Shown: positions 14,690 to 58,346 of the stretch, in pieces
How positions within the stretch are numbered: the first letter of the stretch is position 1
How the letters are laid out: the number at the start of each line of letters is the position of its first letter
Made by a program: the position numbers and the translations under genes
Assembly (NCBI RefSeq): GCF_964355755.1
Contig: NC_092672.1
Location: forward strand, 6,882,001-6,946,000
Direction: 5' to 3'
From: Antedon mediterranea
Lineage: Eukaryota > Echinodermata > Crinoidea > Comatulida > Antedonidae
Length of the DNA stretch: 64,000 nucleotides
Notes under the pieces: generated by a model
The model's input: only the letters and a program-made list of their open reading frames with translations
The model's database searches: none
What the model was told of the DNA's origin: nothing

Positions 14690-17600
14690 TTATATGTGTT
14701 CATGTGTCGTGATTAAGACTATCACTGTAATAGACGCTGTCAGTGCAATGAGCAATGTCAAAAATAAAAGCAATCTGTCTATTAACACCGCAACCTCTCG
14801 CCATTCGTTTACTATTTTCTCCTTAACCTTTCCCGTTTCCCTTTCTTTATTCATTGATCGTAGTTCTTCATATATCTTTGATAATTCTTTGGCGCCATTT
14901 TGTTTTGCTTTTGTAAAACGAATGTTATCACTCTCGCTGCTGTGAATTTCTTTTTCGGTCAATTCGTGCTCATGCGGTGATTGGTTCATGACGTAGAATC
15001 CACCTTCTCCGTGCCTAGTTCTCGATTGGTGGGTGAGAACACCCTTGAAATAACTAGTTTTTTGGTGGTTCCGTCCAATAGTTCTGCCTATTCGTCCGAG
15101 TAGTAACGTACGTAGCCATAATGGTACCCGGTGTGTCTGCCCTCTATTGTAGATGTTCATCACGAAGGCTGTTGCTACTACACTAAAACAGCTCATACAC
15201 ATAAGAGTTGTAAAATAAGACTCTAAAACACAAAAGAAGAGAAATGAATTATGAAATGATAATTAAATATATTATGTATATACTTTGGCACGACGGGACT
15301 AATGAAGGACAGTATATGATCACAATCGGTAATAAAATTCGGTTTACGTCATAAATTGTTCATTTCATTTCATTTCTTTATTCTTTCTTAATCCACATAT
15401 AGTTGATAACTCAATAAAGCTACCATAACTATTTTGGCGGCGATGGCGCCCCATGGATAAAATACATGATACGGGAATTTGGAAAGCATACGATATACGA
15501 GAACTAGAAACTAATAGTATATGTAATCCCAATCCATAGAACTGACTAAAAGCCTTTTGGGCACATGTCTGTTTATAATCGAACAGTGCATTATAGTGTG
15601 GTAGTATTGAATGTCAATTTAGCCATCAATGTAACTGTAGTAGTTTATACAAATACTATACAGGGAGTATACGTTTAAATACAATACTGTACAATTTCAA
15701 TATTAAAATTAGTGAATATCATTTGAGAGATATGTAACTGTAATTATAGATCGACCTTTAGAGTCGGTGATCAGTAAATCAAATTTTTTTCAGATTTGTA
15801 GAGACATCTATAATATAAAACAAAATCGATTTTTTTTGTAAACTATCAAATTACAGTAGAAGATGAGTTTTTAGTGAAATGAATACATTAACTTGTAATT
15901 ATTCCAATATTAAACTTACGTATTATTGGTGTACTATCGGCTGATGGGGGCAATGTTTGAGCAATTAATTGTTGAAAAAGTAAGATTGCAAGCAGGGTGG
16001 TAACACCAAATGAGGTTTTCTCTCCACTTTCAGGGGGAAGAAGAAACACAAACATAGTTAGGAAAGACAGCAGACAACACGGGAGTAGAATGATCTCAAC
16101 AAAGAATCGTTCCCGGCGTCTTAGCACGATGTCGTATTTCACAATGGCGTATGTTTCAGGACAGCAGTTATATTTACGTTCTTCCCTCTCACTTTTGACA
16201 CCAACCAGGTTCCATACTCCATTCTCGTGATACTCAGTTTGAATAGCTCCAGGTGATGTGTCCGGGTGAATATCCTCCTGTCCCATATGGTACACCCACG
16301 TTCCGAACTGTAATTTACAGTGCTGCACATCAAGCGGGAAAAAGCGTACGTTGATCTTGCAAAACGTGTGGAATATTGTCGGAGATGAGTAGTAGACGGT
16401 GCCATCATAGGATACAACAAGGTCCAGTAAATATCTGATACGTTGGAATTCTTCATCAATGCTGAAAATATATAATTTAAAAAAAATAAGAATCAGATCT
16501 CTTTATTTGGCCCGTCAGCACCACATCTACCCAACAAGGTTATAGATCAAGTTCACATAATTCTTTTAGACATAATGATGATTACTCGTTTTTCTTTGAA
16601 TTTGCATCTTAAATCCATTGTAAGCTCAATTGAAATATTTACCATTTATTATAATATGTTTATTATATCTACCGTCTACTTAAGTGAGACTTAAGCATCG
16701 CTTATGCTATTATATACCGTACTGATTCCAATATTTCTATTCAAGACACACTACATATTTTCGTTTTCTCAAGCATATTAAAATAGTAAAACTGGCCAAA
16801 TTAATTATAGAGACACACCCATTGCATTTACGATAGGTAAAGCAACCGTGTTTCTTACTTGTTGTAAAGTGTGACGTCAGGATGCCATACGTCATCAACT
16901 CCAATGACAATACTCGTTAGGTTTTTAAATTCCTCTGGCTTCCAAGTAAGGTGTTCATCCGTCCATGTCTAAAATTCATAATTATATGTATACTATATAT
17001 TGCAAAATTTCTCTAATTTCACTTCACTGATTACAATATTCCATTTAAGCAAACAAAACGATAATCCCATAATGGGTCACCAGGGCATATCTGTATACTC
17101 TAAGCATGTTTAAAATATTACAGTACTTCGATGGCTTCATAGTGTATCATAGTCTAATTATAATGTCTTCTTTCTTAATGAATTATTTGTTTGTTTGTAA
17201 AGAGTACCGTTTATTCTGCATATAAATGAGCTCCCATGCAGAGAGTTACCAGTTCTTTTCCACCTTTATTTCCCTGTGTTTAGACGCGACTCCCTAGCTC
17301 ACTATGTCGGTCGGTTGGTCGGTCGGTAAACACTAACTTAAATTTGCAATTTTTGGTGCACGCGACTGGACCAGTCATGTATATGGCCTTGTTTTTCATT
17401 GTTAAAAAATTGGTGCCTGTGTGGTGCAACGTTTATACCTCCGTGGACAAAATATGAACGCCGTCTTTTTTAATGGTCTACATTGATTAATTTAAGTTTA
17501 CAGGGGTGTGTTATAAGCCATGAATGCAAAACAAAAAACATTCGTTCAATTAAATATTACACACATATTGCCTGCTATACAATTTCACAATAATAGCTGG

Positions 17601-33365: not shown

Positions 33366-33648
33366 TTTACTGACGGGTATGACTGAATTAAAACAAAAAT
33401 TGTTCTTTAATATTTAATGTATTGTATAGAATATAGTAAAGGTATAATGTAAAATGTAGACCTATAGTAATCTTTAAACCAAGTATACTTGCAAAAGATA
33501 GGAAGGTAGTTAAATTATCAAAAGTGAAGAAAAGGAGTTATGTGTTTGCCTTTACATAATGCTCATGCAAGCAACTGCTGTGCTGGCTGATGGTCCTGTT
33601 TTTTTTGTTTTAATTAGGCCTAATGGGTGTGTGTGTGTATGTAGCCTC

Positions 33649-36600
33649 TTAAGAATGGTATATTTTTTTAAAGAAACTAATGTATGTAATAAGTATACTC
33701 ACACAGGATAGGGAGGTAGCAAAATTATCACAAGTGAAAAAAGGATATATTTTGCTTTTGCACTTGCCTTTGTTTTTGCCCTTGTCCTTGCCCTTGCCTT
33801 TGTTTTTGCCCTTGTCTTTGCCTTTGTCCTTGTCTTTGTTCTTGCCTTTGCCTTTGTCATTATTTAAAGATGCCAATAAATATGTATTTTCGTTGCTGCC
33901 TACATATTGGATGTCTACATCTTCGCTGCATACATCTTCGCTGCCTACATCTTCGCTGCCTACACTTTCGCTGCATACATCTTCGCTGCATACATCTTCG
34001 CTGTCTTCATCTTGGCTGCCTACATCTTCGTTGCCTACACCTTCGCTGCATACATCTTCGCTGCATACATCTTCGCTGCCTACATCTTCGCTGCCTACAT
34101 CTTCGATGCCTACACTTTCGCTGCATACATCTTCGCTGCATACATCTTCGCTGTCTTCATCTTGGCTGCCTACATCTTTGCTGTCTACATCTTCGCTGTC
34201 TTCATCGCCCTCTTTATCGCCCTCTTTGTCGTTCCAATGGTGTATACAATCTAAGCATGCCTCAGAAATAAGACATAGCACCATAATAACATTGACGCTT
34301 ATAACTATACCTCCTATTAGAAAGAAAAAAATTGATCATCTAAACTAATTTTTGCTTTATCGTTTGGTAACTTTCTCTCGTTGTAAAATTGTAAAAAAAA
34401 AAAAAATAACTTTAATCAATTGGAAAAATAAAAATTACCTATTAGAGGAATGTGATTTCCCGATGCAGGAACATTCAAGGATTGTAAAATCACGAATAAA
34501 TTCTCTCCTACAAAAACAGATATCCCATATTTCAGTCTTCTTTTCGGTTTTACATGTGACATCTTGAACATAAAACACATTGAAAACGCACCAAAAAAGT
34601 ATGCATTTGCTAAAAACATATACCAAAAATTGTTCCGCCGTTGTAAATTGACCAACAGTTGTAACGTTGCATATGGAGACGTATTGCTTAATTTTGCTTG
34701 TATATCATGTATTGCCCAAATTTGATTGTTGTCATCACTGCTTATCTCTTGATCAAAATCATCATTAAAGTCAAGTTTGTTTCTAGGCTGTGTCAACGAA
34801 AAATCTAATTTACATTTTTGTTTGTCATCGGGATAGTACTTGAAGTTCAAAGGGCAATTCGTTTCAAATATACTTTTAGATGTAAGCTTCACACTGCCAT
34901 TGTAGCACACTTCAGCCGGATCAATCGACAGGAAAGATTTTTGATTCTGCCTATTTTAAAAATAAATATTGATACATTTATTACAAAATCGGAAAAAATA
35001 CTATAATATTTCAAAACTTGAATAAATGTAGGCATCGATTTTGTTTCGAATTCACTAGGCCTATATGTCAAGAAAAACCTGCGAGTTATCAATATAGAAA
35101 TAATACAAATTTAACATACGCTTGATGAAGTTTGGCATCTGGCGTCCAGATTGTCTCCTGTGATATTTGTAGACATTCAATTTTGGTCTTTTCATGGTCC
35201 CATGAAATAAATTCGTCCTTCCAATTCTGTAAAAATTAACAATAAAAGTGTAAGTTTATTAATATGTTCAATTCTATCATGCATCATACTATTTTAAAGG
35301 TTGTATATTCGTCTGCTACCAATAGAGGTAGACATTTCATGATGAAACACGTATAGAAATCGATTTGCATACCGCACACATCCGATAGGAATGATGATAC
35401 CGTATTTGGATAAAGTTAAAAGCCTACCACAGGGGCATGTGGCTCAAATATTTGGTGTCGAAGCCCCATCTACTATTTTAAAATCAAGGATACTGTAATA
35501 TAATGTTGGTTTGTTGAGGTACTAATGAAGACTCTGACTCGCTTGACTGAAAAAAATGGTATAAAATAATTTTTTTTTTTTATAATTTTTTTAAGAATAG
35601 ATAAGGAACGGAGGGTGTCACGAAACCTCAGACCACGAAAGCTCAGACCCCCTAAGACCTAAGATCACGAAAGCTAAGACCCAACACCTAAGATTACAAA
35701 TACTAAGATATACTACAGCTTAAAAACATTACTTGTTTATCCATACATAATTTTAAACACAGTAGGTTTCATTTATTACCATAAATATAATTTAATACTA
35801 CCGCAAAACATAGATAAACTCACATTATTTTCGCCCGTTGAGTAAATGTATATTTTTTCTTTACAACAAACAAATTTGACGGGTTGTTTGTTGGTATATA
35901 TTTACTCCATTGTGTTGGTTCAGAGGATGTTTTTCTTACGCACCTGCCTTTCTTGTATTTTGACTCCAAATTTGTTGAGTAACTTTATCCTGAACACCAC
36001 ACTTTAAAATTAGGACTTATAAGTACTTTCAGAAGGAGAAACACATAATAACAAATAAATAAATCCTTTAAATTGATGATTTTACAGATGTGTTTCTTGT
36101 ATACTGTAATGTAACTCCTCGAGCTCCCATGCTCAATGTTTTTGTTTCTATGGAGCGCCAAAAGAGCAACAATAATAGTACAAGTATAAAAACAGAAAGA
36201 AAACGAAACAAAAAAACTTATCATGATTTTTTAATTAAAATTTATTTGCCAGTATTTATTTCTTCGTACTTGCATGATTATACTATTATCATTACAATTT
36301 TAATTTTACATTGTTCCATCCACACTGTAGATGGACTCCACAGAGATTTTTGCTCTTTTGACGTTCCATAGAAACAAAAACATTGAACATGGCCCATGGG
36401 GTGGGTAGGCCTACTGTACTGTAGGCTAGTCATTTTTTGTGCGAGAAAAACGTCTGTAAAATCATCAATTTAAAAATGTATTTGTTACTTTTTATGTGAT
36501 TCTTTTTCATGAAAGTGCCAATTCTAAGGTGTGGTATTCAGAATAAATGTTAGGAGTTAAAATACAAGGCAGGTGCGAAAGATAAATATTTGTAATCTTA

Positions 36601-39600
36601 GGTGTTGGGTCTTAGCTTTCGTGATCTTAGGTCTTAGGGGGTCTGAGCTTTCGTGGTCTGAGGTTTCGTAACACCCAAGGAACGGACGATCAATGATGCT
36701 GTCAGTGAGGTGTGAAGTGTGTAGGTCTGCTTCTGAAGAAGTGGCTGTGAGATGTGTCTGGGCCCTTCTGAAACTTGGGAGTATATTGGCTCAGTTCATT
36801 TGCATAATGTCACTACGTAATCTGTGAGGGTAACGATTGGTCCTAAGTTGGTCCAGGGGTGTTTAAGTGGGAATGATTGATCTTATCTGGGGAGGTTACA
36901 ATGATGAATTGGACCTGTCGAATCTCTGCTTAAAACTGTCAGTATCTAATTGTTTTACGATGGGAACGGTCGCAAAGTTAAGCTAAGTGTTTTCTTTAGG
37001 GACTCTATTATAAACTAAGTGGTCATTAAAACATCTGGACAAACTCTCCTCTGGACTTTCTGGGTCAAGTTTGTGAACCTATTTGAATTCCGATACAAAG
37101 GTCAATTTCTTAATTATAAAAGTATATCATTATATTACAATACACTCCTGACCCCCACTTCAACATCGTGATGACCTGCCAAAATAAACACCAATATATA
37201 TATAATGTTAAATACAAAAACAGCACAACGCTTAGCCAGTACATCTGGAAGCTAAACGATGATAACATAAAGTATAACATTAAATGGCGAATAATAAAGA
37301 AGTGTAAACCATATTCCAATGTTAACAAACGGTGTAATCTATGCTTACAAGAGAAGTATTATATTATATGCAAGCCTGAAACCAGCTCACTTAACCATAG
37401 GAACGAATTAGTCAGTGCATGTAGACATAGGAGAAAGTTTCTACTAAAGCATCAGTAATTTAGATAATAAGAATTTGGTTAACAATAGACTGTCCAGGAA
37501 ATAGAGATGTGTTGTACTTGCTAATTAGCATACTATTGTTCACATAAACAGTTTGCCTTAAGACTTCATTATAGCTTTTTGTATTCACTTGTGACTATCA
37601 TTCAGAGCCAAGCACCTGAAGATTGAGTTCATACTCATGAAACAGCCTGTAGTGCAATAAAATGTTCAGTTGGTAATTTACTAGCGTCTTTCATTTATTT
37701 ATATTTGGCTCTACATTTTGTATCGAGCACTTTCGCTTTCATGGTCTGCGTTAAATTCACCACGATTTATATATATAAATCGTGGTGAATTTAACGCAGA
37801 CCATGAAAGCAAAAGTGCTCGATACAAAATGTAGAGCCAAATATAAATAAATGAAAGACGCTAGTAAATTACCAACTGAACATTTTATTGCACTACAGGC
37901 TGTTTCATGAGTATGAACTCAATCTTCAGGTGCTTGGCTCTGAATGATAGTCACAAGTGAATACAAAAAGCTATAATGAAGTCTTAAGGCAAACTGTTTA
38001 TGTGAACAATAGTATGCTAATTAGCAAGTACAACACATCTCTATTTCCTGGACAGTCTATTGTTAACCAAATTCTTATTATCTAAATTACTGATGCTTTA
38101 GTAGAAACTTTCTCCTATGTCTACATGCACTGACTAATTCGTTCCTATGGTTAAGTGAGCTGGTTTCAGGCTTGCATATAATATAATACTTCTCTTGTAA
38201 GCATAGATTACACCGTTTGTTAACATTTGAATATGGTTTACACTTCTTTATTATTCGCCATTTAATGTTATACTTTATGTTATCATCTTTTAGCTTCCAG
38301 ATGTACTGGCTAAGCGTTGTGCTGTTTTTGTATTTAACATTACGGAATGAACTATTGTGTGCGTTATATCTGCATTTAAATGTGTTTTCGGTTAGTCCGA
38401 CATATGTTTCAACTTTATCATCATCATTTGTTGTTACTGTAGCCTGATAAACAACACCACTGGTTAGGCATTTCCCATCTAATGGGCATTCATTTCGACA
38501 GTTGCATTGCTTGATGTTATCACAGGGCATATCATTACGTAATACATTTTTGTTGTGGGCCGATATTACAGACCCTATATTAGGCATACAACTATAGCTG
38601 ATTTTAATGGTGTTTCTATTAAATATTTTTCTTAGCTCATGGTTATGTGGAAAACATTCATCTACAGTCTTTAAGAACTCGTGCCCTATTTTGGTTTTCA
38701 CGTTGGCACTGTAAGGCGGGTTGAACCAGATGATATTTCTTTTCCTTGTCTTCTTCACGTTATTTTGTGCGCTGGTATTGGTCGGGTTGTACTTAAGATT
38801 GTGGTTGTATCCACTTTCATACAAGGCTTCTTGGTACGGTTTCTTTGATTCATTGAAAACAGCTTCATTCGAAGAAATGTTTGATAATCTTTTGTTTATG
38901 CCTTCAGGGATGTTCATAATTATTGATGCTGGATGATTACTTTTGCAATGAACATAGCGTGGTTTGTTGTTTTCCTTTAAATAAGGCTTATAGCTTCCAT
39001 CGTTGAGATTAAGCGTTACATCTAGGTAGTTTATAATTTTCTTATTCACTTCGATCGTTATCTTTAGATTATGTTCTTTGAATGTGCTGCAGAGATCTTT
39101 TTTTATTTTTTCAATAACATGAGGAGTTTCATTAAATGCCGCAAGTCCGTCATCCCTGTACAATCCTATGTTATTACCGTACTTGGGTTCCAGTTTGGCT
39201 AGCAGAAACAGACCTATTAACTCGCATGTTTCAGCACCGTCGTAGCTACCCATAGTAACATCGAATGTGGTGTTCCTTTTGCACCAAGCTGTCTCGTCGT
39301 TGAATAGTAGTGTATTCTTGGCTTTGATTACTATTTCCCTTTCTTCCTCTGTAATATCGGTGAATTTTTTAGCAAAGTTGAGGGCTTCATTGAGAAGGTC
39401 CAAAGTTATCGAAGGATAAAATTCTGTTACATCAAAGCATATGAACAGATGATTTTCCTTATCCCGGATGCCTTTAAACCATTCTATCATGTCGTTAGTA
39501 TTCCTCCACTGGTTAAGCTTGGTCTTACGTGCGATATGTTTGTTAACTCTTTCTAGGATGTGTTTACTTATCTTTCCTATCTCTGATTTTGAGGGGTTAA

Positions 39601-42600
39601 TTAGTCTGCAAGTCGGCTTGTTTACAAAATTTTCCTTATGGTCTTTCAGGGTTATAAAGGCATTACGTCTTCCAGTTGTTTCTATCCTGTCATCTAGCTG
39701 TATTTCTTAATCTCGTCTTTGGTTATACTATTTACAGAATCCGCCGGTGCTTTTTTGTATGTTTTCGTTATATTCTTTTGCAATAAGTCGTTATAATCAT
39801 TCGCGTCCATGCGGTAGAAGTTGTTTGATTTGTCTGCAGGTATAATTAGTTTGCTGTCCTGCTTTATCTTTCTCGCGTCTCTCTCTAGGTTTTTCTGAAA
39901 CGGGCATTTATTATCTTCAAACTTGATATTCTGTACTAAATTAAGCATTTTATCTTCAAATTCTCTAAGTTCTTGTACTGGAGGCGGGTTTCTTGAGGTC
40001 TTGAATTTAAACGTTTCTTTGGCGGATGTCGATACTGCTGGATTTAGGTAATGGAAGGCCTTCCATCGCATACGATTTAAAAACAGTTCTACCTTCTCGA
40101 TCATAAACTTCATGTATTCATTTGGTTGAGCCGTCGGTATGTTCTTAGTGGAATAACCAAGGTCGATACGTTCCATGTTGATCTGAACAGTGCTCAACAA
40201 AAGTAGGAGCAAAATATAAATCGTGGTGAATTTAACGCAGACCATGAAAGCGAAAGTGCTCGATACAAAATGTAGAGCCAAATATAAATAAATGAAAGAC
40301 GCTAGTAAATTACCAACTGAACATTTTATTGCACTACAGGCTGTTTCATGAGTATGAACTCAATCTTCAGGTGCTTGGCTCTGAATGATAGTCACAAGTG
40401 AATACAAAAAGCTATAATGAAGTCTTAAGGCAAACTGTTTATGTGAACAATAGTATGCTAATTAGCAAGTACAACACATCTCTATTTCCTGGACAGTCTA
40501 TTGTTAACCAAATTCTTATTATCTAAATTACTGATACTTTAGTAGAAACTTTCTCCTATGTCTACATGCACTGACTAATTCGTTCCTATGGTTAAGTGAG
40601 CTGGTTTCAGGCTTGCATATAATATAATACTTCTCTTGTAAGCATAGATTACACCGTTTGTTAACATTTGAATATGGTTTACACTTCTTTATTATTCGCC
40701 ATTTAATGTTATACTTTATGTTATCATCTTTTAGCTTCCAGAATATATATAAACACAAGAGGCAAAGAACATTAATTCTAAACCGCCCGGTGATATACTG
40801 AAATTTAATTAATTAATTTGAAACGATAAAGATGAGGAAATCTGTGAGAATGAGAAAAAGTCGCCCCAACCGAGACTCGAACTCGGACCGCCTGCTTGAT
40901 ATGCAGATGTCCTAACCATTAGACCACTGGGGCTTTCATGGTATTGTTCGAACTCGATTGGATAACGACTCTTTAACATTCTCGGCGTGGTACGGCGGAA
41001 CAGCACTAGTCCTCAGTTGTACGCACGCGCAACAGAGATCATATTGATACGCCCTCATCTTTCAGTATTTTTATTCACAAGGCGGGATCTCCGAAGAGAT
41101 ACTTTTATATATATAAACACAAGAGGCAAAGAACATTAATTCTAAACCGCCCGGTGATATACTGAAATTTAATTAATTAATTTGAAACGATAAAGATGAG
41201 GAAATCTGTGAGAATGAGAAAAAGTCGCCCCAACCGAGACTCGAACTCGGACCGCCTGCTTGATATGCAGATGTCCTAACCATTAGACCACTGGGGCTTT
41301 CATGGTATTGTTCGAACTCGATTGGATAACGACTCTTTAACATTCTCGGCGTGGTACGGCGGAACAGCACTAGTCCTCAGTTGTACGCACGCGCAACAGA
41401 GATCATATTGATACGCCCTCATCTTTCAGTATTTTTATTCACGAGGCGGGATCTCCGAAGAGATACTTTTATATATATAAACACAAGAGGCAAAGAACAT
41501 TAATTCTAAACCGCCCGGTGATATACTGAAATTTAATTAATTAATTTGAAACGATAAAGATGAGGAAATCTGTGAGAATGAGAAAAAGTCGCCCCAACCG
41601 AGACTCGAACTCGGACCGCCTGCTTGATATGCAGATGTCCTAACCATTAGACCACTGGGGCTTTCATGGTATTGTTCGAACTCGATTGGATAACGACTCT
41701 TTAACATTCTCGGCGTGGTACGGCGGAACAGCACTAGTCCTCAGTTGTACGCACGCGCAACAGAGATCATATTGATACGCCTTCATCTTTATATATATAT
41801 ACCACCGGCACACTACCACACAGGGCAGGGTCTGGGTGGGTGGGAAATAATATACAAATTGAATTGCGTCGTCTTCCATTTCAGGTGTGAATGTATAGAA
41901 ATCTAGCGTGCCACCGTAATTATTTTCCCTTAAAGACAGACATTAGGAATATGCATGTACATAACTGTGATGATTAATCATCTGAATGCGTTTCCATAAG
42001 AAAAAACAAAACAATACAAAAATAACTTACCATATTATACTTTCCCGATAATTTAAGGGTGTGTGTGAAGTCATTCTATAAGAAATTAACTAAATATAAT
42101 AATATAGTTTATAAAGGATATGTAACTCTTTTAAGGTCAAATTTATCTATTTACAATGGTCCTAAAAAGATATATAATATTTCGGTAATTTAATAATTTG
42201 ATGAGTAATTTAAAAGAAAAGCATATTTTTAAATTACATAATTATTAATTTGCTAACTGAATATAAAGAAATAGTAAGGTGCATGAAGTTTTGGAGTACT
42301 TTAAGATTTGTTTGTGTTTTGTTTTTACATAAAAGTAGGAGTAGGAGTAAATACTTTATTTACATCTTTATTGCACAATATTTTCGTGTTTATTTAATAT
42401 AACTAGGCCGTCAATGCATTAGATACATGTTTTTATATTTTAGGAAAAAAACAATTACTTTTGTAAAAGCATACCAGTTCTACAACTTCAAACGTTCCAA
42501 AGGTAACCAAAATCATAAGTGTTGTATTCGGATTAAGTACTGGCCGTGTAACAGGAGGTTGAGGGTAAGTTTCAGAAATATTTTTCATAAGCAGGGCCTC

Positions 42601-42887
42601 CATATTTGGATTCACTATCGGCTTAGCATCAGAGCTTACTAAAGATAGAAAGGCATTGCACATTGTTAGAAAACTACGCAAAATTCTACGACGGTAGTAC
42701 ACCATAAATAATATATTTTGCACAATCCATGTTTTATAATATAAGCACAAAATAGAACATTTTTCATTTCTGAGTACTGCCATGTACGTTATGATGCAGT
42801 AGATGTAAAGAGATGTTTAACAAATGTGGGGAAAAGAAGGTACTTACCAGTAGATAATGCTAGAATCAGTATTAATAGCAAAGACAT
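33649..42887 (-). CDS. Gene B: highly divergent Cys-loop receptor subunit, 6 exons, 510 aa
   Basis: Exons, right to left: 42848-42887 (signal peptide [13 protein letters not shown]), 42475-42638 (164 bp), 42031-42075 (45 bp, [15 protein letters not shown]), 35120-35226 (107 bp, [10 protein letters not shown]...), 34439-34950 (512 bp), 33649-34313 (665 bp, with stop). Every junction is GT/AG and in phase. The Cys loop [15 protein letters not shown] is intact and pre-M1 LQRRNNF is conserved. However, loop-B Trp is lost (FSLTQPRN where gene C has FISWTHD), there are no vicinal Cys, and M1 Pro is Asn (FLANAYFF). M2 begins [17 protein letters not shown]: Arg at -1', Lys at 2', Val at 9', Glu at 11'. 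The M3-M4 loop is (C/G)SEDV pentapeptides, then a Lys/Gly/Asp/Asn tract. M4 is weak. A conducting cation channel is unlikely; it may be a regulatory or anion-type subunit (inference). Intron 3 (6.8 kb) is packed with transposons. Confidence 0.85.
33762..33864. repeat. Coding micro/minisatellite: Lys-Gly-Lys-Asn/Asp tract in gene B
   Basis: On the plus strand the unit is cttgcctttg with cttgtctttg or tttttgcc variants in 6-bp steps. On the minus strand it encodes [13 protein letters not shown]-type runs at the C-terminal part of gene B's cytoplasmic loop. All units keep the reading frame because the period is a multiple of three. Confidence 0.8.
33905..34215. repeat. Coding minisatellite, 15-bp unit, in gene B cytoplasmic loop
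   Basis: About 20 units of tacatcttcgctgca/c encode (C/G)SEDV pentapeptides on the minus strand. A higher-order repeat is visible: a block starting [20 protein letters not shown] occurs twice, at about 34030-34170 and again at about 33915-34020. The frame is kept throughout. The ORFs on the plus strand here are shadows of the repeat. Confidence 0.9.
35613..36676. mobile_element. 1.06-kb foldback DNA element, copy 2 (inverted relative to copy 1)
   Basis: Same family as 28821-29880, lying in opposite orientation: the sequence after its left TIR (aagatatactacagctta) matches the complement of copy 1's right half. The 10-bp target duplication AAGGAACGGA is perfect (35603-35612 and 36677-36686). 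It is inserted in gene B intron 3. Short ORFs inside (for example 36090-36371) are not conserved as protein between the copies. Confidence 0.88.
37203..37770 (+). mobile_element. Inverted partial copy of the PLE (3' end of pol plus tail)
   Basis: Plus-strand copy of the last ~85 codons of the PLE pol ([19 protein letters not shown]... to ...RRKFLLKHQ, stop near 37458) plus the full 3' tail. It is joined head-to-head to the main minus-strand copy at a (TA)n palindrome (accacgatttatatatataa...) around 37765-37780. It begins immediately after a TATATATATAAT tract. It differs from the main copy at only a few bases, so the arrangement is recent. Confidence 0.88.
37612..37655 (+). ncRNA. Hammerhead ribozyme motif in PLE tail (plus copy)
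   Basis: Stem I GCAC/GTGC (37612-37615 with 37652-37655); core CTGAAGA (C3 U4 G5 A6 N7 G8 A9); stem II TGAGT/ACTCA with loop TCAT; GAA (G12 A13 A14); stem III ACA/TGT with loop GCC; then A as the cleavage-site residue (GUA, allowed as GUH). Every conserved core position is present. A T-T pair adjoins the core at 10.1/11.1 where G-C is usual. Hammerheads are known in Penelope-like elements. Confidence 0.72.
37890..37933 (-). ncRNA. Hammerhead ribozyme motif in PLE tail (main copy)
   Basis: Identical 44-nt motif to the one at 37612-37655, here on the minus strand downstream of the pol stop codon. It would allow self-cleavage of the element's RNA, with scission after the A that precedes the second GTGC strand. 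Confidence 0.72.
38087..39696 (-). pseudogene. PLE reverse transcriptase core plus C-terminal endonuclease-like domain
   Basis: The open frame continues rightwards of its first Met (39490) to about 39697. Motifs in order: [11 protein letters not shown] and [20 protein letters not shown] (fingers), [10 protein letters not shown] (motif A, catalytic Asp), [20 protein letters not shown] (motif B), [11 protein letters not shown] (motif C with the catalytic Asp pair), [10 protein letters not shown]. Then a linker with Cys clusters ([19 protein letters not shown]) precedes SGVVYQATV...[13 protein letters not shown], a GIY-YIG-like endonuclease core, and a C-terminal CNLCLQEK. Catalytic RT residues look intact. 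A one-base shift near 39697-39703 separates it from the N-terminal part, so this copy is not autonomous. Confidence 0.88.
39694..40281 (-). pseudogene. PLE pol N-terminal part, frameshifted from the RT core
   Basis: 195 codons from 40281 (or Met at 40174, [12 protein letters not shown]) to a TAG at 39694-39696. It contains the PLE N-terminal block [14 protein letters not shown] followed by [12 protein letters not shown], which corresponds to the 'xxxADKxxxxVVM' RT1 region of PLEs. The stop is reached only because one base appears missing just before it. The next frame continues [14 protein letters not shown]. Confidence 0.85.
40216..40742 (-). mobile_element. Truncated upstream tandem PLE copy (pseudo-LTR)
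   Basis: Contains the last ~70 codons of pol ([11 protein letters not shown]... to ...RRKFLLKYQ) and the whole tail. It leads directly into the 5' end of the main copy in the same orientation. Its own 5' break at 40742 abuts AATATATATAAACAC, the start of the tRNA-like tandem array. Confidence 0.88.
40331..40374 (-). ncRNA. Hammerhead ribozyme motif in PLE upstream copy
   Basis: Third identical 44-nt hammerhead-fold sequence, placed upstream of the main pol. Cleavage here would define the 5' end of a full-length PLE transcript. Confidence 0.72.
40862..40933 (-). tRNA. tRNA-like gene, anticodon AUC (would read Asp GAU), copy 1
   Basis: A 72-nt perfect cloverleaf: acceptor GCCCCAG/TTGGGGC, D stem GTCT/GGAC (one G-T), anticodon stem TCTGC/GCAGG (one T-G), loop ATATCAA with U33 and anticodon AUC, T arm CCGAG-TTCGAGT-CTCGG, discriminator G. 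A and B box promoter sequences are present, and TTTTT follows 2 nt downstream as a Pol III stop. AUC is not the usual eukaryotic Asp anticodon (GUC), and A32 is unusual. It may be a tRNA-derived repeat rather than a working tRNA. Confidence 0.6.
41226..41297 (-). tRNA. tRNA-like gene, anticodon AUC, copy 2
   Basis: Same 72-nt sequence as copy 1, one 364-bp period to the right, with the same T-run terminator on the minus strand. Confidence 0.6.
41590..41661 (-). tRNA. tRNA-like gene, anticodon AUC, copy 3
   Basis: Same 72-nt sequence in the third unit. Only the upstream (5') flank of this unit is shortened, by the array's right-hand break at about 41788. Confidence 0.6.
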
Positions 42888-49041: not shown

Positions 49042-49747
49042 TTAGCAAACTTGACAGTTGTCAACTGAGCAGGGTGGAGCGTTACGACTAGCAAAGTTGG
49101 ATGGAACGTTGGCTGAGCCTGCCAAGTGCTGAATACCTGCTAGCAGTGGACAGGAAGGTGGACACACGGGGACTGACTGAGAATTCTCCCTGCATAGCTT
49201 TTCGAGCGCTTGAACGCATGGCTTACTGTTAGTTAGGACACGTGTGTTATGTCGAGACTGAATAATAAAAGGGCTAAAATGTTTAACAGCTGCCGCGATA
49301 GCCAAAGCTTCGATCTCGCAGGGTAGCCATGCTACCTGACGTGCACGGAGTTTGACACTAAAAAAACCGGCTAACTGTAGTTCATTCACGAGTAACGTAT
49401 AAGATTGCGCCTAGACCATGACTTTTAACAGCACCATCCGTAATGATCCACAGTTGGTCATCGGGATGAGGTAAAACTATGACTTTGTGTGAGTCAAGTG
49501 CGTTCTGTGCTATTGCAAATGCTTCGTGTAAGGCATCGTACCAATGTATTGTATCTTTGGACTGTAAGCCAGCTATGGCTTCTTTCAGTGGAGCGATGAA
49601 AGATGGGCTATGAGGCAAAACGCGTGCTAACACCCTGATAAAGGAGCGTAAACCTCTTACCGTCGGTGGTGGAGTGCATGCCTTTAACGTTGAAATACGA
49701 TGAGTATTTGCGCGAATAGACCTTAGGGACCAGGTCCACCCACCCAA
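49042..49747 (-). pseudogene. RT connection and RNase H of LTR element
   Basis: Two overlapping frames. 49382-49747 gives [20 protein letters not shown] (RT thumb/connection), then LWIITDGAVKSHGLGAILYV, an RNase H start with D (TDGA). 49042-49389 continues FFSVKLRARQVAWLPCEIEA with the catalytic Glu and LTNSKPCVQALEKL with a position usually occupied by Asp. A shift near 49385 and a stop at 49042 break the frame. Confidence 0.75.
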
Positions 49748-50425
49748 GAATGGTTGTGGTTCGTGGACAAATCACCGTTTTGCTAGCAGACAATCGCAGA
49801 CCACACTTGTAAATGCATTGGAGTAGACGCCGCCAATTGTAAATTAACTCCTCAAAACTGTCCCCTCCACAATAAAGGTCACCCGCAAGCTTTGCTACTA
49901 CTCCCTCCTTAATCAAATCCCCCAGTACCCGACAAGTCAGCTTTTCGAGGGCGGTCTCTGAACCAGGCATACCCATGGCACACCGGACATAAATTCTGAC
50001 ACCTCGAAATGGTGTGGCAACGCCGCAGTACTTCATAGAACCGCGAGACAAAGGAATCTGGTAAAAGGCCTTTGTGAGGTCAGTAGTAATTAAGTGCTTC
50101 CATTTTGCGATATTACGTAGAACGGAGTTGACATCCGGCATAAGGGAGGGTTGGGGTCTCGCATATTGTCCGACCTCGGCGAATGCTGTAACCAGACGGT
50201 AGCCACCACTCTCTTTTTGACAAGGAAAGATGGGTTAAAATATTCGACTTGGACACCGACGTCCTCGGGGCGAACAAATACTTCGTCAAGCTCATCAAAT
50301 TTGTCCTGTAGCTCAACTAGTTTATCTCTGGAGTATATACTGAGGAATTCGACCCTTCCTCTGAAAAGGCTGTACAGGTCCCATGTTAACAACAGCCTGG
50401 AATGGGCCAACATAGCCGTAATCAT
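49608..50425 (-). pseudogene. Reverse transcriptase of LTR element, active site changed
   Basis: [20 protein letters not shown] (motif A with catalytic Asp) and [20 protein letters not shown] (motif B) are clear. Motif C reads [10 protein letters not shown] where the family has two adjacent aspartates, so one catalytic Asp is replaced by Gly. The frame shifts near 50100, where fingers residues upstream ([17 protein letters not shown]) read in another frame. It is inactive as it stands. Confidence 0.82.
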
Positions 50426-50634
50426 AGGATCGAAAAAAACATCGTATTCAGTAAGAATGGATTGGAATTGGGATTTAACATTGTGGGAGGATATGGCCTA
50501 GATCTAGCTTGATATAATCTGAAAACGCGACAGAGGAAGAAGGCTTACAGGGCTTAGGTGGTGACTTTTGGGGAATAGCGTTTTTGTCCGATAATGGCAC
50601 AAAGGTGGGTTTGGACCTGGCAAAAATGTTCATG

Positions 50635-51378
50635 TCATTTGATAACCTGAGGTGTGTCAGTAGAGTTTGGAATACGTATCCTTCCCGCAACACTAGAGAC
50701 CAAGTCAAACTTTGGCCAGGTTCGAGGAAACGTACCCTTACTATGTGGTTCGAGAGCAAACACGTCATCTTGTTGGATAAAGTCAGACGGAATGGTTACC
50801 TCGATAAATTCTCCCGGCCATACAGTGGTCTCCCCTTCAGGAGCACGAAGCACACAAGCACGGCGAACCATGTTATGGTGAAAGTCCTCTACCTTGGAAC
50901 CATAGATGTACGTGGTACCGTCACCCAATTTAACTTCCCGCTTCGCGGGTCGGAGGGCGATGTAATTTAGCTCCATAAAAGGAGTTCCGGCAAGAATGTC
51001 GACGTCAAGTTTCTCGACAACGAGACCCTCAAATTTGAATTCCCTGTCGTCCCTTGTGAGAATAATTGTTGTTTCGCCTACGACCGAAAGTGGAGAAGAT
51101 CCGTCAGCCTGATGGGCAGACTGAGAGCTACTTTTAATGGTAGCGCCAAGGGCAGTGGCAGCAGTAAAGGCAATCATGTTTCCTGTAGCCCCACTGTCGA
51201 GTGTGATTCTGGCTGTGTGGTGTTGGTGAAATGTGTCAAGGTATGGGGACTGGCGAACTTGGACTCGTAAACCTGTCGAGGGTGCACTATTATAACCAGG
51301 CTCATCCGAGGTGTTATCATTGATGATCCCAACGATTTGTCGGGCCTTAGCCATGTATTTCCGGTCTGACTCGGACAA
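50635..51378 (-). pseudogene. Retropepsin-like protease of LTR element
   Basis: ARITLDSGATGNMIAFTAAT carries the D-S-G-A catalytic signature. EKLDVDILAGTPFMELNYIA is the C-terminal ILG-type block. Upstream MSESDRKYMAKARQIVGII is a linker from gag. The frame is open over 247 codons. A frame break separates it from the RT part. Confidence 0.8.
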
Positions 51379-51519
51379 AAGAGGACATTGAGGACTTGTG
51401 TTGAAAAAACTGTGATCGGAAAAATACCTTTACTTAACTAACATAGGAAAGCCTTTGTGGATGAGGGAGAGCCAGGTAAGAACCATCAAATTTTCCAACG
51501 AGGGTGAAAGTTCTTCATC

Positions 51520-52032
51520 CTATTGTATTTGGGCATCATGGTGGGAAATACCTTGACGTAGTAAATTATCATGGACGAAAGCAACTAAACGCTGATAGAG
51601 ATCTTCCGGCCGTTCGATATCTTGTAAATGTATATCAGCAAAATCAATAAAATGGGTGCCGGTTGACTGGAATCCATAATGCAGTCGGATAGTTTTCCAA
51701 ATTTGAGAAAGTGAAGAGGAGCTTTTAACAATGGTATTCTGGGAAATTATAGGGCAACAATTAGCGATCTGACCGAGCATGAGTTCTAGGATAGTTAGTT
51801 TTTGTTGGGCGGTATGACGACGTGCAACAGGTACATCCTCATTGTCGTCAGTTAAGCCGCGAAGGGGAGATGCCTTGGTTTTGGAACGCCAAACAGAACC
51901 ATCTAGGAGAAATGGGGAAAAATTAGCGTCCAACGAGAGGGTGTAGATAAGGTTTTGTTTCCAGTTTTCAAAGGTATTTATAGTTTCATTCTTGGTTAAG
52001 CACCATTGCTTGGGTGCTCTAGTACCGGCCAT
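51520..52032 (-). pseudogene. gag-like protein of LTR element
   Basis: From ATG at 52032 ([20 protein letters not shown]) about 170 codons run through [20 protein letters not shown] and [20 protein letters not shown] to a stop at 51520. The composition and the [14 protein letters not shown] block resemble the retrotransposon gag capsid-like region. No CCHC zinc knuckle is seen before the protease. Confidence 0.65.
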
Positions 52033-52165
52033 GGTATGAAATGTAAACAGATGTCTAGGTGTTTTCAGTTGCACGTGTAAAGCAACAGCCGATCGGCACA
52101 TGTGAAAGCGTAGAGTATGTGATGATCTGCTAGCTCGATTTGTTCGGCTAGGCCTACTGTACAGT

Positions 52166-53043
52166 GCCCACCACAATAAAGACACCGGACACGTAGGACT
52201 CAAGTAGAATAAGATCTTTATTCGTTAAAACCAAATATCATAATAACATAACAACCAGCGGCCATATATAGGACAGTGCATTTCGGCCGCCACTCATTTC
52301 GGCCGCCGGTTATGGAACGCCCAAATTCATGAAACTCCAAAAAGGACAAAATATGGCATGACCATTTCCGCCGCCAGGTATGGCGCGCCAAATTGAAATA
52401 GTCAGAAATAACTCATTAACTGTACAGTATTACAGTTTAAAAAAATAACTTTATCAAATCTATGGAACGCCACAGAGAACTATGGTCATTTAAACTAGAG
52501 ATCAGTTGTGCAATGGGCTAAATACATTTTGTTTTTGCCGTAAGCATAGATTTAGTTTAGTTAAGTTATATTAGTTACGGTATTTTACCGTTTGAATATT
52601 TTGGTCAAAATGAATATTGATTTAATGTTTATTTTTTTATTTATTTTACAAGTCCCGAAGATGCGTGTGCTTTGTAAAAATGTGTTTCTTTTAATATGAA
52701 TCAAGTCAAGTGTTTTTGACTGGCACATAAAAAAACCTTCAGCATCACCTCCTTCTTATTAAAAAAATATCATTAATATTCACTGTTTCTGGAATTGAAG
52801 ACCGCCGATTCGGCTTAATAATACAGTATTTAGGCCTAGTAAAATATTAACATTTTAACACACATGGCGTGTCATACATATTTAAGAATAATTACAATTC
52901 TGGCGGCCGAAATTAACAATACATATTTAGTCCTTTTTGGCGTTTCATGAATTCCATAACCGGCGGCCGAAATGACTGGCGGCCGAAATGATCAGACACC
53001 ATAGAGCAGAGGGTCAACCCAGCTAGGGGGCGCTAGACTGGCG
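52166..53043 (-). repeat. 5' LTR, split by a foldback element
   Basis: LTR halves 52166-52266 and 53002-53043 join at a TA that is duplicated around the insertion. Confidence 0.7.
52267..53001. mobile_element. Foldback DNA element inserted in the 5' LTR
   Basis: Ends contain the doubled phrase catttcggccgcc(a/g), then gttatggaa on the left and its complement on the right (ccataaccggcggccgaaat, gactggcggccgaaatgatc). Also mirrored are ccaaaaaggac / gtcctttttgg. Target duplication is TA or ATA. There is no ORF. Confidence 0.75.
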
Positions 53044-54002: not shown

Positions 54003-57000
54003 CTATACATAAAATGACATTAGTGTTATAAAAATAGTGACCGCAGACAATATGAACATTACAAAGTCCGACACTTCAATTATTTTTTCTATTTTTTTGT
54101 TTTCTGTGTCTTCCAAATATTCGCATAGACGCTCAACCTTGTCTGAACAGGTGCCTGAACAGCACTTCGTCGCTTCTTCTTCTGACTCGTTTTCTTTGCC
54201 TTGTTTTTTACATTTGATACATGGTACCCAGACGAGAACTAATTGTATAACACGATATTTACTTAATTCATATATGAGACAGATAGTGCTGATCAGAATA
54301 ACTGCCAAAAAGAATCTTCCTGTTGGTAGAAAAAGATATGAAATATTTAGCATAATTTAAAAGGCAACATTTTTTTTGTAATTAGTTTATTTTTCTTTAA
54401 TTAACCGGGTAATTGCATATTAATTAAGAATATATAAATGATTAAGCTTTTGTGCATTCGATATTACAGATTACGGATTCTTCTAATAATATGTTTTCCA
54501 CTCATGTGAAACGCAATAATTGTATTTAAATTGCTTTGTCATTTGTCTTGTCAAACATATAATACCTTTACCAACCACATTTGTTTGTCGGTTCATAATA
54601 ATGATGATAGTGATGGCGATGGCGATGGTGATGATGATAGTGATGGCGATGGCGATGGCGATGGTGATGGTGATGGTGATGGCGATGGCGATGACGACCA
54701 ACCACATTTTTTTGTCGGTTCATGATGATGATGGTGCTGATGGTGATACTGATGGCGATGACGACCAACCACATTTTTTTGTCGGTTCATGGTGATGATG
54801 GTGATACTGATGGCGATGACGACCAACCACATTTTTTTGTCGGTTCATGATGATGATGGTGATGATGGTGATAGTGATGGCGATGACGACCAACCACATT
54901 TGTTTGTCGGTTCATGATGATGATGGTGATGATTATGGTGATGGTGATGGCGATGGCGATGGCGATGACGACCAACCACATTTCTTTGTCGATTCATGAT
55001 GATGATGGTGATGATTATGGTGATGGTGATGGTGATGGCGATGGCGATGACGACCAACCACATTTCTTTGTCGATTCATGATGATGATGGTGATGATTAT
55101 GGTGATGGTGATGGCGATGGCGATGACGACCAACCACATTTGTTTGTCGGTTCATGATGATGATGGTGATGATTATGGTGATGGTGATGGCGATGGCGAT
55201 GGCGATGGCGATGACGACCAACCACATTTCTTTGTCGATTCATGATGATGATGGTGATGATTATGGTGATGGTGATGGCGATGGCGATGACGACCAACCA
55301 CATTTGTTTGTCGGTTCATGATGATGATGGTGATGATTATGGTGATGGTGATGGCGATGACGATGGCGATGACGACCAACCACATTTGTTTTGTCGGTTC
55401 ATGATGGTGATGGTGATGATTGTGCTGATGGTGATGGCGATGCCGATGGCGATGACGACCAACCACATTTGTTTGTCGGTTCATGATGATGATGGTGATG
55501 ATTGTGGTGATGGCGATGGCGATGACGACCAACCACATTTGTTTGTCGGTTCATGATGATGATGGTGATGATTATGGTGATGGTGATGGCGATGACAATG
55601 GCGATGATGACCAACCACATTTGTTTGTCGGTTTGTGATGATGATGGCAATGACGATGGCGATGACGATGACGATGATAAAATACTGTACTTAGTGTAAT
55701 TTGACTTGAGCCTCATCTTATACACCTTAGCATTTAGGTATGGAATACAGTATAATTACCAATTTGTGGAATTTGATCGCCGACGGGTGGTAATGACAGG
55801 AAGATTAACTGGTTAAAAACAATCACCGCAAGCACCACAGTTATCCCATACGATATTCTTTCTCCAGGCTCAGGTACAAGGAACATAAGACAGATGAGAA
55901 AAGAACACATATAGTAAGGAATCAAATAGAATGTCTTTTGAAATTCATGTCGTCGTTGCAAATGTATCCAAAACTGCAAAGATGAATAAGAACTGAACGA
56001 ATAATTGTTAACTGTTCGTGCTTCCTTAACGCCCATAAGTTTCCAAATTCCATTCTCAACAAATTGCTGGTTTTGATCAAAACTATTTGCAATTGGATAA
56101 AAGTCAAGTTTGTTTATATCATGTGTCCAAGAGATAAATTCTAATACGCATGTTTGTTCGTCTTTCGGATAGTATTTGATGTTTATATGACAAAATGTTT
56201 TAAATAGGGATATGCTGTAAAGCCTCACGCTGCCGTTGTAACATACAGAAACAGGAACGTCTGACATGAAATATTTGTGATCTCTGTCTGTGCTGAAAAA
56301 AGAAACAGATTAACATGAATGTATTGATACTACCGATAATGTCAAATAAAAATGCAATCAATGAGGTTTATTGGATCACCTTTATTTGAATGCCGAAATA
56401 ACACATGCAGTGTATTATATATCAAATGTAGTATATTGCCTGAAAATGTGCTATTACAACCACTAAATGTACTAGTATTTTTATCAATTATTCTATTTAA
56501 TGAATTTTCATTCATTATTTTCTCGTGTCACTACAGTATATTCAAACGTTAACCAAATGAAAATAGCAAACAATTATTATGGATTTCAGGTAACTTGTTA
56601 TAAATGTGCTACTATATGTATTGTTTATTGTAGAAATAAAATCAAATCAAAACAGAGATTATGGATGCATATCAACACTAAAACTTAAATCATGGACCTA
56701 TAAAGTTATTATAATATTCTTCTTTATTGTATCAAACAAAACAATTTCAATACAAAAGGTCAAGGTATAGCCGAAGCTAATCAAGCTTGGTACCTTTTAT
56801 CTTAACTAACTTAAGCTACGAAATTAACAAATAAATAACAGAACTTAAAAGAAAATGAAAATTTGATAACGTCAAAAACAAAACAAAAAATTTTGAATAA
56901 TAAATAAATAACATAACATAAAGTGCTGTATGTACTGTATTGTAATAAACAAAACGATATCAGTTCAATAGATAATATTTGATGAATGAATGAATTATAA

Positions 57001-58346
57001 GTCCATGCTTAAATTAACTATTTTAATGACCTGGAAATAAACTGTATTTCATTTCTTATTTAATGTCGTTTTATTTTTATTTTTCACACTTATTTCTTCC
57101 CGCCAAAAAAATCCTTATTTTTTTGTTTTTAAATTAAAAATGTATTATTACTGTTGTTATTGTTGTTGCTACATTTATTATGTTAATGTTAACAACCTTT
57201 ACTTACTTCTGTAAAAGGACAATATCAGGTATCCATATTTTGTCCTGCTTCATTTGTATGCATTCAATGCCAGTATCTGTGATGTTCCAAGAGATAAATT
57301 CGTCTTGCCATTCCTGTGTTGGAACAATATGATTGTATACAATTTTGATTTATAACAATAGTTTTTACCGTAAGGCTGTAAATGTGGGGGAATAACCTGT
57401 GTCTTACAGTCTAACTGAGCTGAATTGCACACAGGTGAGGACGACAGACACTAAATTTCTTCTTGCCTAAGGGTCCCTTTGTGTAGAGTGCTGCCACCAA
57501 ACGGCGCTCATTTGTCGGTCCACAATAATATATTATCATTTCTATCTTCTCCGTTATCTACCAAAGACATGTTAATGATTAAAATAAAAGCTTACCAAAG
57601 TAATCCAGCCCGATATGTCAAGTATTTGCAAGGCGTCGTCCTATAAAAAACAAACAGTAGCTTAAATTAGATATTAACATTTATGCTGATAGTATGACAT
57701 ACATCTAGAATTATATAAACATATTTGCAGACTTTTCATGGTTTGTACAATAAACATGTTTTACTTGAAATAAAATAATAGTTTTAATATTATAAGCACA
57801 TTCTGTTGAAAATCTGTTGCATATATTTGTTGTGTCAAACTTTATTTTATCTTTTTAGAAATAAATAGTGTACTTACTAGTTTAATAACTTGAGTTAATA
57901 CAAAGCTAGATGTAATATTTGTAGTTGTGTTCGTATCTAATACTGGACGAGTTGTAGGTGGGCTAAGATACGAATCTGATATAGCTTGCACAAGATAAGC
58001 CTTTATACTTGGATTCACATATTCTACTGTCTCGGCACTTACTGAAAGTCAGATATTATCCGAAAAAATATTACTTTTTAACATTATTATCTAATTGTAA
58101 TTCCATCATCTTTGTGAAAGATACGAATAAAGCATTCACACTTACAATTGGCTAAACGCATCAAACTATTTTATGTTAATTGTAAATGATTAGTGATACT
58201 ATAGAAAAGTAACGTGTTTGGTATTTCCTAGCCTTTGTGGATAAAATCCATATCGATATGAATTATTATAACTCACCAACACTTGTTATAACAGTTATAA
58301 GAAGAATTGGTAGAATGTGCATAGAATCCATAATCAATCGTTGCAT
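54003..58346 (-). CDS. Gene C: nicotinic-type Cys-loop receptor subunit, non-alpha, 6 exons, 411 aa
   Basis: Exons, right to left: 58277-58346 (signal peptide MQRLIMDSMHILPILLI...), 57878-58041 (164 bp), 57596-57640 (45 bp, DDALQILDISGWITL), 57207-57313 (107 bp), 55760-56292 (533 bp), 54003-54319 (317 bp, with stop). All borders are GT/AG (the exon 1 donor is GTGAGT) and phases match. Loop A region IWIPDIVLLQ, Cys loop CHINIKYYPKDEQTC and loop-B Trp (ISWTHD) are present. There is no vicinal Cys pair at loop C (NNYSFSSYSS), so it is not an alpha subunit. M1 keeps Pro (YLIPYYMCSF). M2 starts GERISYGITVVLAVIVFNQL with Glu -1' and Leu 9', a cation-type pore. The M3-M4 loop is short (~65 aa) with Cys-rich KCCSGTC. 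M4 ends SFYV. Intron 5 holds a large minisatellite. It probably co-assembles with another subunit (inference). Confidence 0.92.
54576..55690. repeat. Composite minisatellite in gene C intron 5, ~14 units of 60-90 bp
   Basis: Each unit starts with accaaccacatttgtttgtc, then ggttcatgatgatgatgg, then a variable number of gatggt and gatggc hexamers ending gatgacg. Anchors occur near 54576, 54699, 54764, 54822, 54890, 54971, 55056, 55127, 55218, 55296, 55377, 55459, 55529 and 55610. Unit length varies with hexamer number. The many MWLVV-, His- or Asp-rich openings on both strands are its translations. Confidence 0.92.

Follow-up and report, generated by a model that had tools for sequence, protein, structure and literature searches.

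Our analysis favors a model in which gene B, a Cys-loop receptor gene on the minus strand at 33649–42887 of the window (the whole stretch of 64,000 nucleotides analyzed here), encodes a membrane-anchored, non-alpha accessory subunit of nicotinic type that would serve a modulatory, dominant-negative or trafficking function within a subfamily formed with the neighboring genes C and D. We give this reading a probability of about one half. The B protein is predicted to retain a secretion signal, an extracellular beta-sandwich with its Cys-loop and four membrane segments, and to have lost the residues for gating and cation conduction. Since these pore residues are gone while the reading frame and the outer domain are intact, B probably serves as a helper or brake, not as a channel on its own.

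Rebuilding gene B from the DNA gave a 510-amino-acid open frame over six exons, with GT–AG ends at every intron and exon phases of 1, 0, 0, 2 and 1; its ends are identical to those of the sequence-only reading that preceded this work, which had described a gene open over six exons with matching phases. No stop, frameshift or broken splice site was found across the six exons and 510 codons. All five phases are identical in C and D, and their exon sizes are identical or nearly so (164–167, 45, 107 and 512–542 nt). Exon 1 (42848–42887; this and all following gene features lie on the minus strand) carries the start codon and signal peptide and ends in phase 1 at a GT donor that keeps exon 2 in frame; its counterpart in C is likewise hydrophobic. 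Exon 2 (42475–42638; 164 nt, the length of exon 2 in C) encodes the N-terminal helix region and the first strands of the extracellular domain, with 43% identity to C and 45% to D over 47 amino acids, and exon 3 (42031–42075; 45 nt, 15 amino acids) matches exon 3 of C and D in length and phase. Intron 3 (35227–42030) spans 6.8 kb, compared with 0.14–0.28 kb in D and C, and is enlarged by an RT-like element, a 570-bp palindrome and a tRNA-containing array of 2.9 copies of a 364-bp unit. Exon 4 (35120–35226; 107 nt), which is 56% identical to C and D and aligns with alpha-7, retains the loop D Trp (NWKDEF) and the WxPD motif; the loop A Tyr is missing, as it is from C and D. Exon 5 (34439–34950; 512 nt), identified by alignments and the Pfam match of the whole protein, encodes the Cys-loop, loop B, loop C, M1 and M2, and exon 6 (33649–34313; 665 nt), placed by the gene rebuild, encodes M3, a repeat-derived M3–M4 loop, M4 and the stop codon.

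The whole protein matches the Neur_chan_LBD family (PF02931) with 83 bits against a cut-off of 26 (E=2.2e-23). Neur_chan_memb (PF02932) yielded no match to B at E≤0.001, compared with scores of 26.8 bits for C and 52.7 bits for D; by sequence B descends from this family yet has drifted outside the PF02932 model. Four membrane segments can be placed in B, M1, M3 and M4 by hydropathy and alignment and the less hydrophobic M2 by alignment. The best PDB matches are to alpha-7, and the human alpha-7 nicotinic receptor, the best solved-structure match by sequence (E=1e-17), is alignable through M3, although B lacks its principal binding face and its conserved pore residues. AlphaFold models of exon 5 (four sequences) reached a pLDDT of 50 for B and 52 for C, a low confidence that makes them too weak to use; both of these models show strands followed by two long helices. 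A tree of the genome's nicotinic-type exons unites B, C and D with a support of 0.999, and the terminal branch of B (1.44 in the exon-5 tree) is the longest in the cluster and is exceeded by only one other of the 33 nicotinic-type exons in the genome. By sequence comparison, the nearest paralogue is gene C (54003–58346), which is 43% identical to B and has a canonical GER/Leu 9' pore and a short M3–M4 loop. Next comes gene D (39% to B), whose exons 5 and 6 lie in the window at 63126–64000 and whose exons 2–4 lie beyond its end. Exons 4–6 of gene A (14693–16971), an alpha-type gene with the vicinal Cys pair and a canonical pore, provided a further comparison sequence. A COX1 search of the genome gave no match, but its tektin-2 is far nearer to the sea urchin axoneme protein (8snb; 239 bits) than to the mammalian ones (147 bits). 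Our literature searches turned up no account of a comparable nicotinic cluster in echinoderms.

Besides their exon architecture, B, C and D have in common the loop D Trp and the Cys-loop, which in B is kept as C-x13-C with its conserved Pro and Asp. They part ways in loop B and the pore. The M1 proline is a conserved feature of the whole pentameric receptor superfamily; B has Asn in its place in the pairwise alignment and Ala in the multiple alignment. Alignments with C and D also bear out the other substitutions reported from sequence alone, namely loss of the loop B Trp, Arg for Glu at -1', Lys at 2', Val at 9' and Glu at 11'. C and D keep the M1 Pro, the loop B Trp and a GER motif with Leu 9', and A has its canonical pore; a cation-type pore had been noted in all three neighbors. 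In the 32 further exon-5 sequences of nicotinic type recovered from the genome, M1 Pro and Leu 9' are invariant (32/32 each), Glu occupies -1' in 29, and a basic residue at -1' or 2' occurs in none (0/32); among the 33 comparable exons only B lacks the M1 Pro, carries Arg at -1' and Lys at 2' and departs from Leu at 9'. Its ring from -2' to 2' reads K, R, R, L, K, and around -1' it has K-P-K-R-R, with the Pro three residues ahead of 0' and no Pro-Ala motif. Alignment of B to C had been described as gap-free from the M1–M2 linker to the M2–M3 loop, which holds for M2 and fails for the linker, where B is longer by two residues than C and by one than D. We rejected a chance frameshift as the source of the odd M1–M2 region because the other frame is not receptor-like and M2 aligns with C without gaps. 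Overall, B retains 11 of 13 hallmark positions in the extracellular domain and 4 of 10 in the membrane domain, compared with 9 of 12 membrane positions in each of C and D. The vicinal Cys pair of loop C is indeed missing from B and present in A; since C and D lack it too, its absence marks the non-alpha subfamily rather than a rule broken by B, and is uninformative about B in particular.

The repeats of exon 6, the in-frame M4 that follows them and the expansion of intron 3 had gone unmentioned in the sequence-only reading. The M3–M4 loop, short in C and D, contains in B a 15-bp minisatellite of 20.8 copies (33895–34206; TRF, 0% indels) that encodes (EDVGS)n and by pattern search occurs nowhere else in the genome, and a 6/30-bp repeat (33751–33857; repeat search) that encodes a stretch rich in Lys, Gly, Asn and Asp. 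The minisatellite differs from its consensus at 26 sites, every one amino-acid changing, and we therefore rejected it as a sign of selection on the loop. M4 (33652–33726) is still in frame past about 470 nt of repeat-derived loop. Its loss in the repeat tail was likewise rejected, as a 14-letter stretch of the segment matches C (LSAVTIFITLMSFY; shuffle p about 0.001).

Constraint on B appears split, with the extracellular domain held and M1–M3 relaxed. Under a codon model of B, C and D, which rests on three sequences only, with synonymous change near saturation (some 2 neutral substitutions per codon) and wide bootstrap intervals, the B branch has an omega of 0.53 in the extracellular domain (below 1 at p=0.029; bootstrap 0.29–1.08) and 0.80 in M1–M3 (not different from 1, p=0.46; bootstrap 0.40–1.67), a contrast within B at p=0.03; C and D have an omega of 0.13 in M1–M3, which differs from that of B at p about 5e-6. 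The membrane segments of B exceed the hydrophobicity expected from neutral drift to the same identity (P=0.003–0.01). Gene B is evidently not an old pseudogene, because it is free of lesions although it has diverged so far. Dead copies in the cluster, by contrast, have acquired stops and frameshifts at low divergence: the copy at C3:6859755, still 91.5% identical, has one stop codon and two deletions, and an exon-2 relic at 28392–28259 that shares 83% identity with D has a frameshift. When neutral decay was simulated from B, fewer than 3% of runs were lesion-free at 0.02 substitutions per site and none at 0.04. The lesion-free frame thus caps any fully neutral period at about 0.02–0.04 substitutions per site, far too short for its numerous radical multi-base changes such as Glu GAA to Arg AGA, Ser to Lys and Pro CCN to Asn AAT, so that most changes in B arose under a kept frame.

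These results bear directly on the rival that survives best, a gene whose function was lost recently after a long period of weakened selection and whose first stop or frameshift is still to come. Relaxed constraint followed by recent death would give a picture similar to the one described here, and several observations fit: omega is raised overall in B (0.58 vs 0.18, LRT p about 2e-4) and just marginally below 1 (p about 0.06), the variation in the minisatellite is entirely amino-acid changing, intron 3 is filled with repeats, and the cluster does yield dead copies. However, the neutral period allowed by the simulations is too brief for the many radical changes in B, its extracellular domain has an omega below 1 and its membrane segments have stayed hydrophobic, and we regard recent death as unlikely. 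The earlier view that B is maintained, and is not a simple pseudogene, agrees with an intact frame at such divergence and with the constrained extracellular domain.

A second rival would place B outside conducting pentamers altogether, with its extracellular domain acting as a tethered ligand binder, a decoy or an assembly chaperone. This domain is constrained and the pore is not, and the acidic and basic low-complexity loop is found in B only. However, the principal-face residues are gone (the loop A Tyr, the loop B Trp and the loop C Cys pair), which makes agonist binding in the manner of acetylcholine-binding proteins unlikely, and B has kept four membrane segments that a soluble binder would not need; we consider such a role improbable.

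The same low standing applies to the proposal, also made in the sequence-only reading, that B conducts anions, its basic residues at -2', -1', 0' and 2' turning the pore to chloride in inhibitory receptors. Basic charge does lie at the selectivity-filter end of B, a place taken by Glu in 29 of its 32 relatives, and B has both the Pro three residues before 0' and an insertion of one or two residues in the linker. Like B, the nicotinic chloride channels of molluscs and flatworms (the Lymnaea nAChRs and SmACC-1/-2) are nicotinic-type subunits that have lost the Glu at -1', and they are anion-selective (PMC4055736). In its place they carry the Pro-Ala motif that defines such channels (PMC4055736), whereas B has K-P-K-R-R and also lacks the M1 Pro and Leu 9'; moreover, five Lys at 2' could just as well block the pore. 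An anion channel is possible yet unsupported, because B has no Pro-Ala motif and its pore, in contrast to that of C and D, shows no purifying signal. We see slightly less prospect still that the pore has become anion-selective or been otherwise re-purposed through the basic -2'/-1'/2' ring without Pro-Ala or the M1 proline, a route that the papers we consulted do not describe and which, if B does conduct anions, would be a new one to anion selectivity.

We therefore return to the accessory subunit as the model we favor. The extracellular domain of B would still fold and assemble with partners from the cluster (C, D or alpha-type neighbors); within a pentamer, loss of the M1 proline together with the ring of basic residues from -2' to 2' would block or strongly reduce opening and cation flow, and B would hence act as a modulatory, dominant-negative or trafficking subunit. 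The suggestion of a dominant-negative or chaperone-like subunit in a nicotinic cluster had been made before, and the kept membrane hydrophobicity and the loss of pore-specific constraint fit it. We infer the expression and assembly of B and the sign of its effect on current. If expressed, B would be a natural example of a nicotinic subunit whose pore was freed from selection while the extracellular and membrane scaffold was retained. Such a gene would reveal which functions are left to a Cys-loop subunit that has neither the M1 proline nor the Glu ring, and would put to the test whether assembly or modulation is enough by itself to maintain a receptor gene.

Accessory subunits of this general kind exist in vertebrates. 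Beta3 and alpha5 keep the M1 Pro and the Glu ring at -1', in contrast to B, which is without both. Beta3 is classed as an accessory nicotinic subunit, and it and alpha5, which are regarded as non-binding, modulate heteropentamers (PMC9319688). The role proposed for B would resemble theirs. Human dup-alpha7 (CHRFAM7A) has lost part of its extracellular domain and has a normal pore. B is the reverse, with its extracellular domain kept and its pore altered, and if expressed would be a mirror image of CHRFAM7A. Like B as we picture it, dup-alpha7 is the product of a duplicated nicotinic gene that is not able to serve as a normal subunit, and this defective duplicate is reported to act as a dominant negative on alpha7 (PMC7949125).

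The most economical account of gene B (33649-42887, minus strand), a Cys-loop receptor gene with a rewired pore and ligand site, is that it encodes an accessory subunit, whose expression, assembly and effect on current we infer from sequence. The gene belongs to a minus-strand cluster of tandem nicotinic-receptor genes that spans at least C3:6.80 to 6.95 Mb, C3 being one of the 18 contigs of the 354-Mb genome, and the window (C3:6882001-6946000) is part of this cluster. A tektin-2 exon of this genome scores 239 bits against the tektin in PDB entry 8snb, a sea urchin sperm axoneme, and 142-147 bits against mammalian tektin-2, which makes an echinoderm source very probable. Rebuilt from splice signals and homology, gene B consists of six exons (40/164/45/107/512/665 nt; phases 1,0,0,2,1) separated by GT-AG introns and encodes a protein of 510 aa that starts with a signal peptide; the ends found in this rebuild are identical to those of the sequence-only reading. 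The same phases are present in gene C (54003-58346; exons 70/164/45/107/533/317 nt) and gene D (63126-64000, continuing past the window end; exons 2 to 6 of 167/45/107/542/200 nt). The M3-M4 loops of C (54003-54319) and especially D (63126-63325, about 30 residues) are very short and probably lack the usual intracellular helix.

C and D are the nearest relatives of B. When the protein sequence of exon 5, which carries the Cys-loop through M2, was searched against the whole genome, they were 43% and 39% identical to B, and no other match covering most of the query exceeded about 28%. A tree built from the 33 exon-5 sequences recovered places B, C and D in one clade (support 0.999), with a terminal branch of 1.44 for B, the second-longest of the 33, compared with 0.25 for C and 0.28 for D. 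Among solved structures, human alpha-7 is the closest match, at E=1.2e-17 for B and 3e-37 for C; the AlphaFold models of exon 5 had low confidence. On sequence, the three genes are a non-alpha subfamily. The vicinal Cys pair is absent from B as first described, but because C and D also lack both this pair and the loop-A Tyr, the two absences are inherited and not specific to B.

Other changes do single B out, in agreement with the sequence-only reading. Among the 33 exon-5 sequences, B alone has lost the M1 Pro, alone has a residue other than Leu at pore position 9' and alone is basic at position -1' or 2'; the loop-B Trp is lost as well. Glu -1' is also missing from three other genes in this set (two Val, one Gly). 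The key substitutions in B each require at least two base changes (for example, GAA to AGA and CCT/CCA to AAT) and are therefore not recent single hits. Its M1-M2 linker, which the sequence-only reading aligned to C without gaps, is two residues longer than that of C and one longer than that of D. The Cys-loop, WxPD motif and loop-D Trp are all intact, and B keeps 11 of 13 extracellular positions conserved in the other genes, one of the two losses being found in C and D too. In the membrane region, B keeps 4 of 10 hallmark positions, whereas C and D each keep 9 of 12.

Elsewhere in the genome, two alpha-type nicotinic genes (L025, C3:10015187; L024, C7:3854882) have GVVK or AVVK instead of the near-universal GEK and hence no Glu -1'; they form one clade in the exon-5 tree (support 0.998) and are possible candidates for non-cation channels. 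A nicotinic-type locus at C4:20545100-20548700 (L019) lacks the vicinal Cys and reads SQGKVNMG, with Gly at -1'.

No stops or frameshifts were found in gene B, although its protein is only 43% identical to that of its nearest relative. In a neutral-decay simulation on its 510 codons (300 runs; assumed indel rate of 0.1 per substitution), about 1.7 stops were expected at 0.02 substitutions per site and 4.6 at 0.06, and a frame free of stops and frameshifts was left with a probability below 3% at 0.02 and in none of 300 runs at 0.04. The cluster copy at C3:6859755, which shares 91.5% identity with its sister over exon 5, already carries one stop and deletions of 5 and 18 bp, and in an orphan D-like exon-2 relic (28392-28259, minus strand; 83% identical to D exon 2), lying between the alpha-type gene A (exons 4-6, 14693-16971) and B, several small deletions have shifted the frame. 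From the simulation and from these less diverged but broken copies, it follows that most of the divergence of B built up under a protected frame; B may nevertheless have died very recently.

In exon 6, two repeats encode the M3-M4 loop of B, about 157 residues long: a 15-bp minisatellite of 20.8 copies free of indels, and a Lys-Gly repeat. A pattern search of the genome found no second occurrence of this minisatellite, and its variation is all amino-acid changing (26 to 0), so the sequence of the loop shows no trace of selection. The in-frame hydrophobic segment that follows matches M4 of gene C, LSAVTIFITLMSFY, with a score reached by 0.1% of shuffles, and B thus still encodes four membrane segments. 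Just downstream of the stop codon (33460-33560), the M4-coding end recurs as a tandem copy that has decayed.

A codon model fitted to an alignment of 288 codons from B, C and D, with these paralogues standing in for an orthologue comparison, gave a whole-protein omega (dN/dS) of 0.58 for B versus 0.18 for C/D (LRT p about 2e-4; B against 1, p about 0.06). In B, omega was 0.53 for the extracellular part (against 1, p=0.029; bootstrap interval 0.29-1.08) and 0.80 for M1-M3 (p=0.46; 0.40-1.67), the two differing at p=0.03; omega for M1-M3 of C/D was 0.13 (difference from B, p about 5e-6). This split is moderate evidence, because the intervals are wide, synonymous changes are nearly saturated and more than one or two tests were made. 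Mean hydrophobicity of M1-M3 in B is 1.61, versus 0.70 and 0.63 expected by neutral drift to equal identity from C (P=0.0095) and D (P=0.003), respectively. Selection appears to act on membrane insertion and the extracellular fold of B but not on pore-specific residues.

Intron 3 of B contains a 570-bp palindrome without spacer (37203-38342, 99%), one arm of which recurs 2.4 kb away (40214-40742). Two adjoining ORFs of 539 and 221 aa in this intron (38090-40359, minus strand) resemble, on visual inspection, a reverse-transcriptase element (YRDDG motif) and had no Pfam match at E 0.01. At 40743-41790, a 364-bp unit is present in 2.9 copies (99% identity), each unit holding a tRNA gene scored Asp(ATC) (57.9 bits) on the gene B strand. 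Between B and C, minus-strand ORFs at 49611-52224 match RVT_1 (E=4e-9) and, weakly, an aspartyl protease, and are probably a retroelement. Intron 5 of C is mostly taken up by tandem copies of an 82-bp unit that contains TGATGG subrepeats (54600-55680). The 8-mer TAGGCCTA occurs 22 times in the 64-kb window (34% GC), versus less than one copy expected from base composition alone.

As an accessory subunit, B would assemble with partner receptors and then reduce, shape or redirect them. The NH-bearing Asn or Ala that replaces the M1 Pro should impair gating, basic residues at four pore positions (-2', -1', 0' and 2') would be expected to repel cations, and the principal binding face is gone. Precedents for such a role are human dup-alpha7, reported to be dominant negative on alpha7 (PMC7949125), and beta3 (PMC9319688). 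The idea that B is an anion channel has little support: M1 Pro and Leu 9' are both missing, the membrane region carries no purifying signal, and B has K-P-K-R-R where the nicotinic chloride channels of Lymnaea and Schistosoma have Pro-Ala in place of Glu -1' (PMC4055736). Expanded nicotinic families whose binding sites are degenerate are already known from invertebrates; in Crassostrea gigas, for example, 33 of 132 are of alpha type, 13 of these 33 have a complete principal site, and eight domains lack the Cys-loop (PMC6896357). Within the literature searched, an intact-frame subunit that combines loss of the M1 proline with a basic inner ring is an unusual variant.
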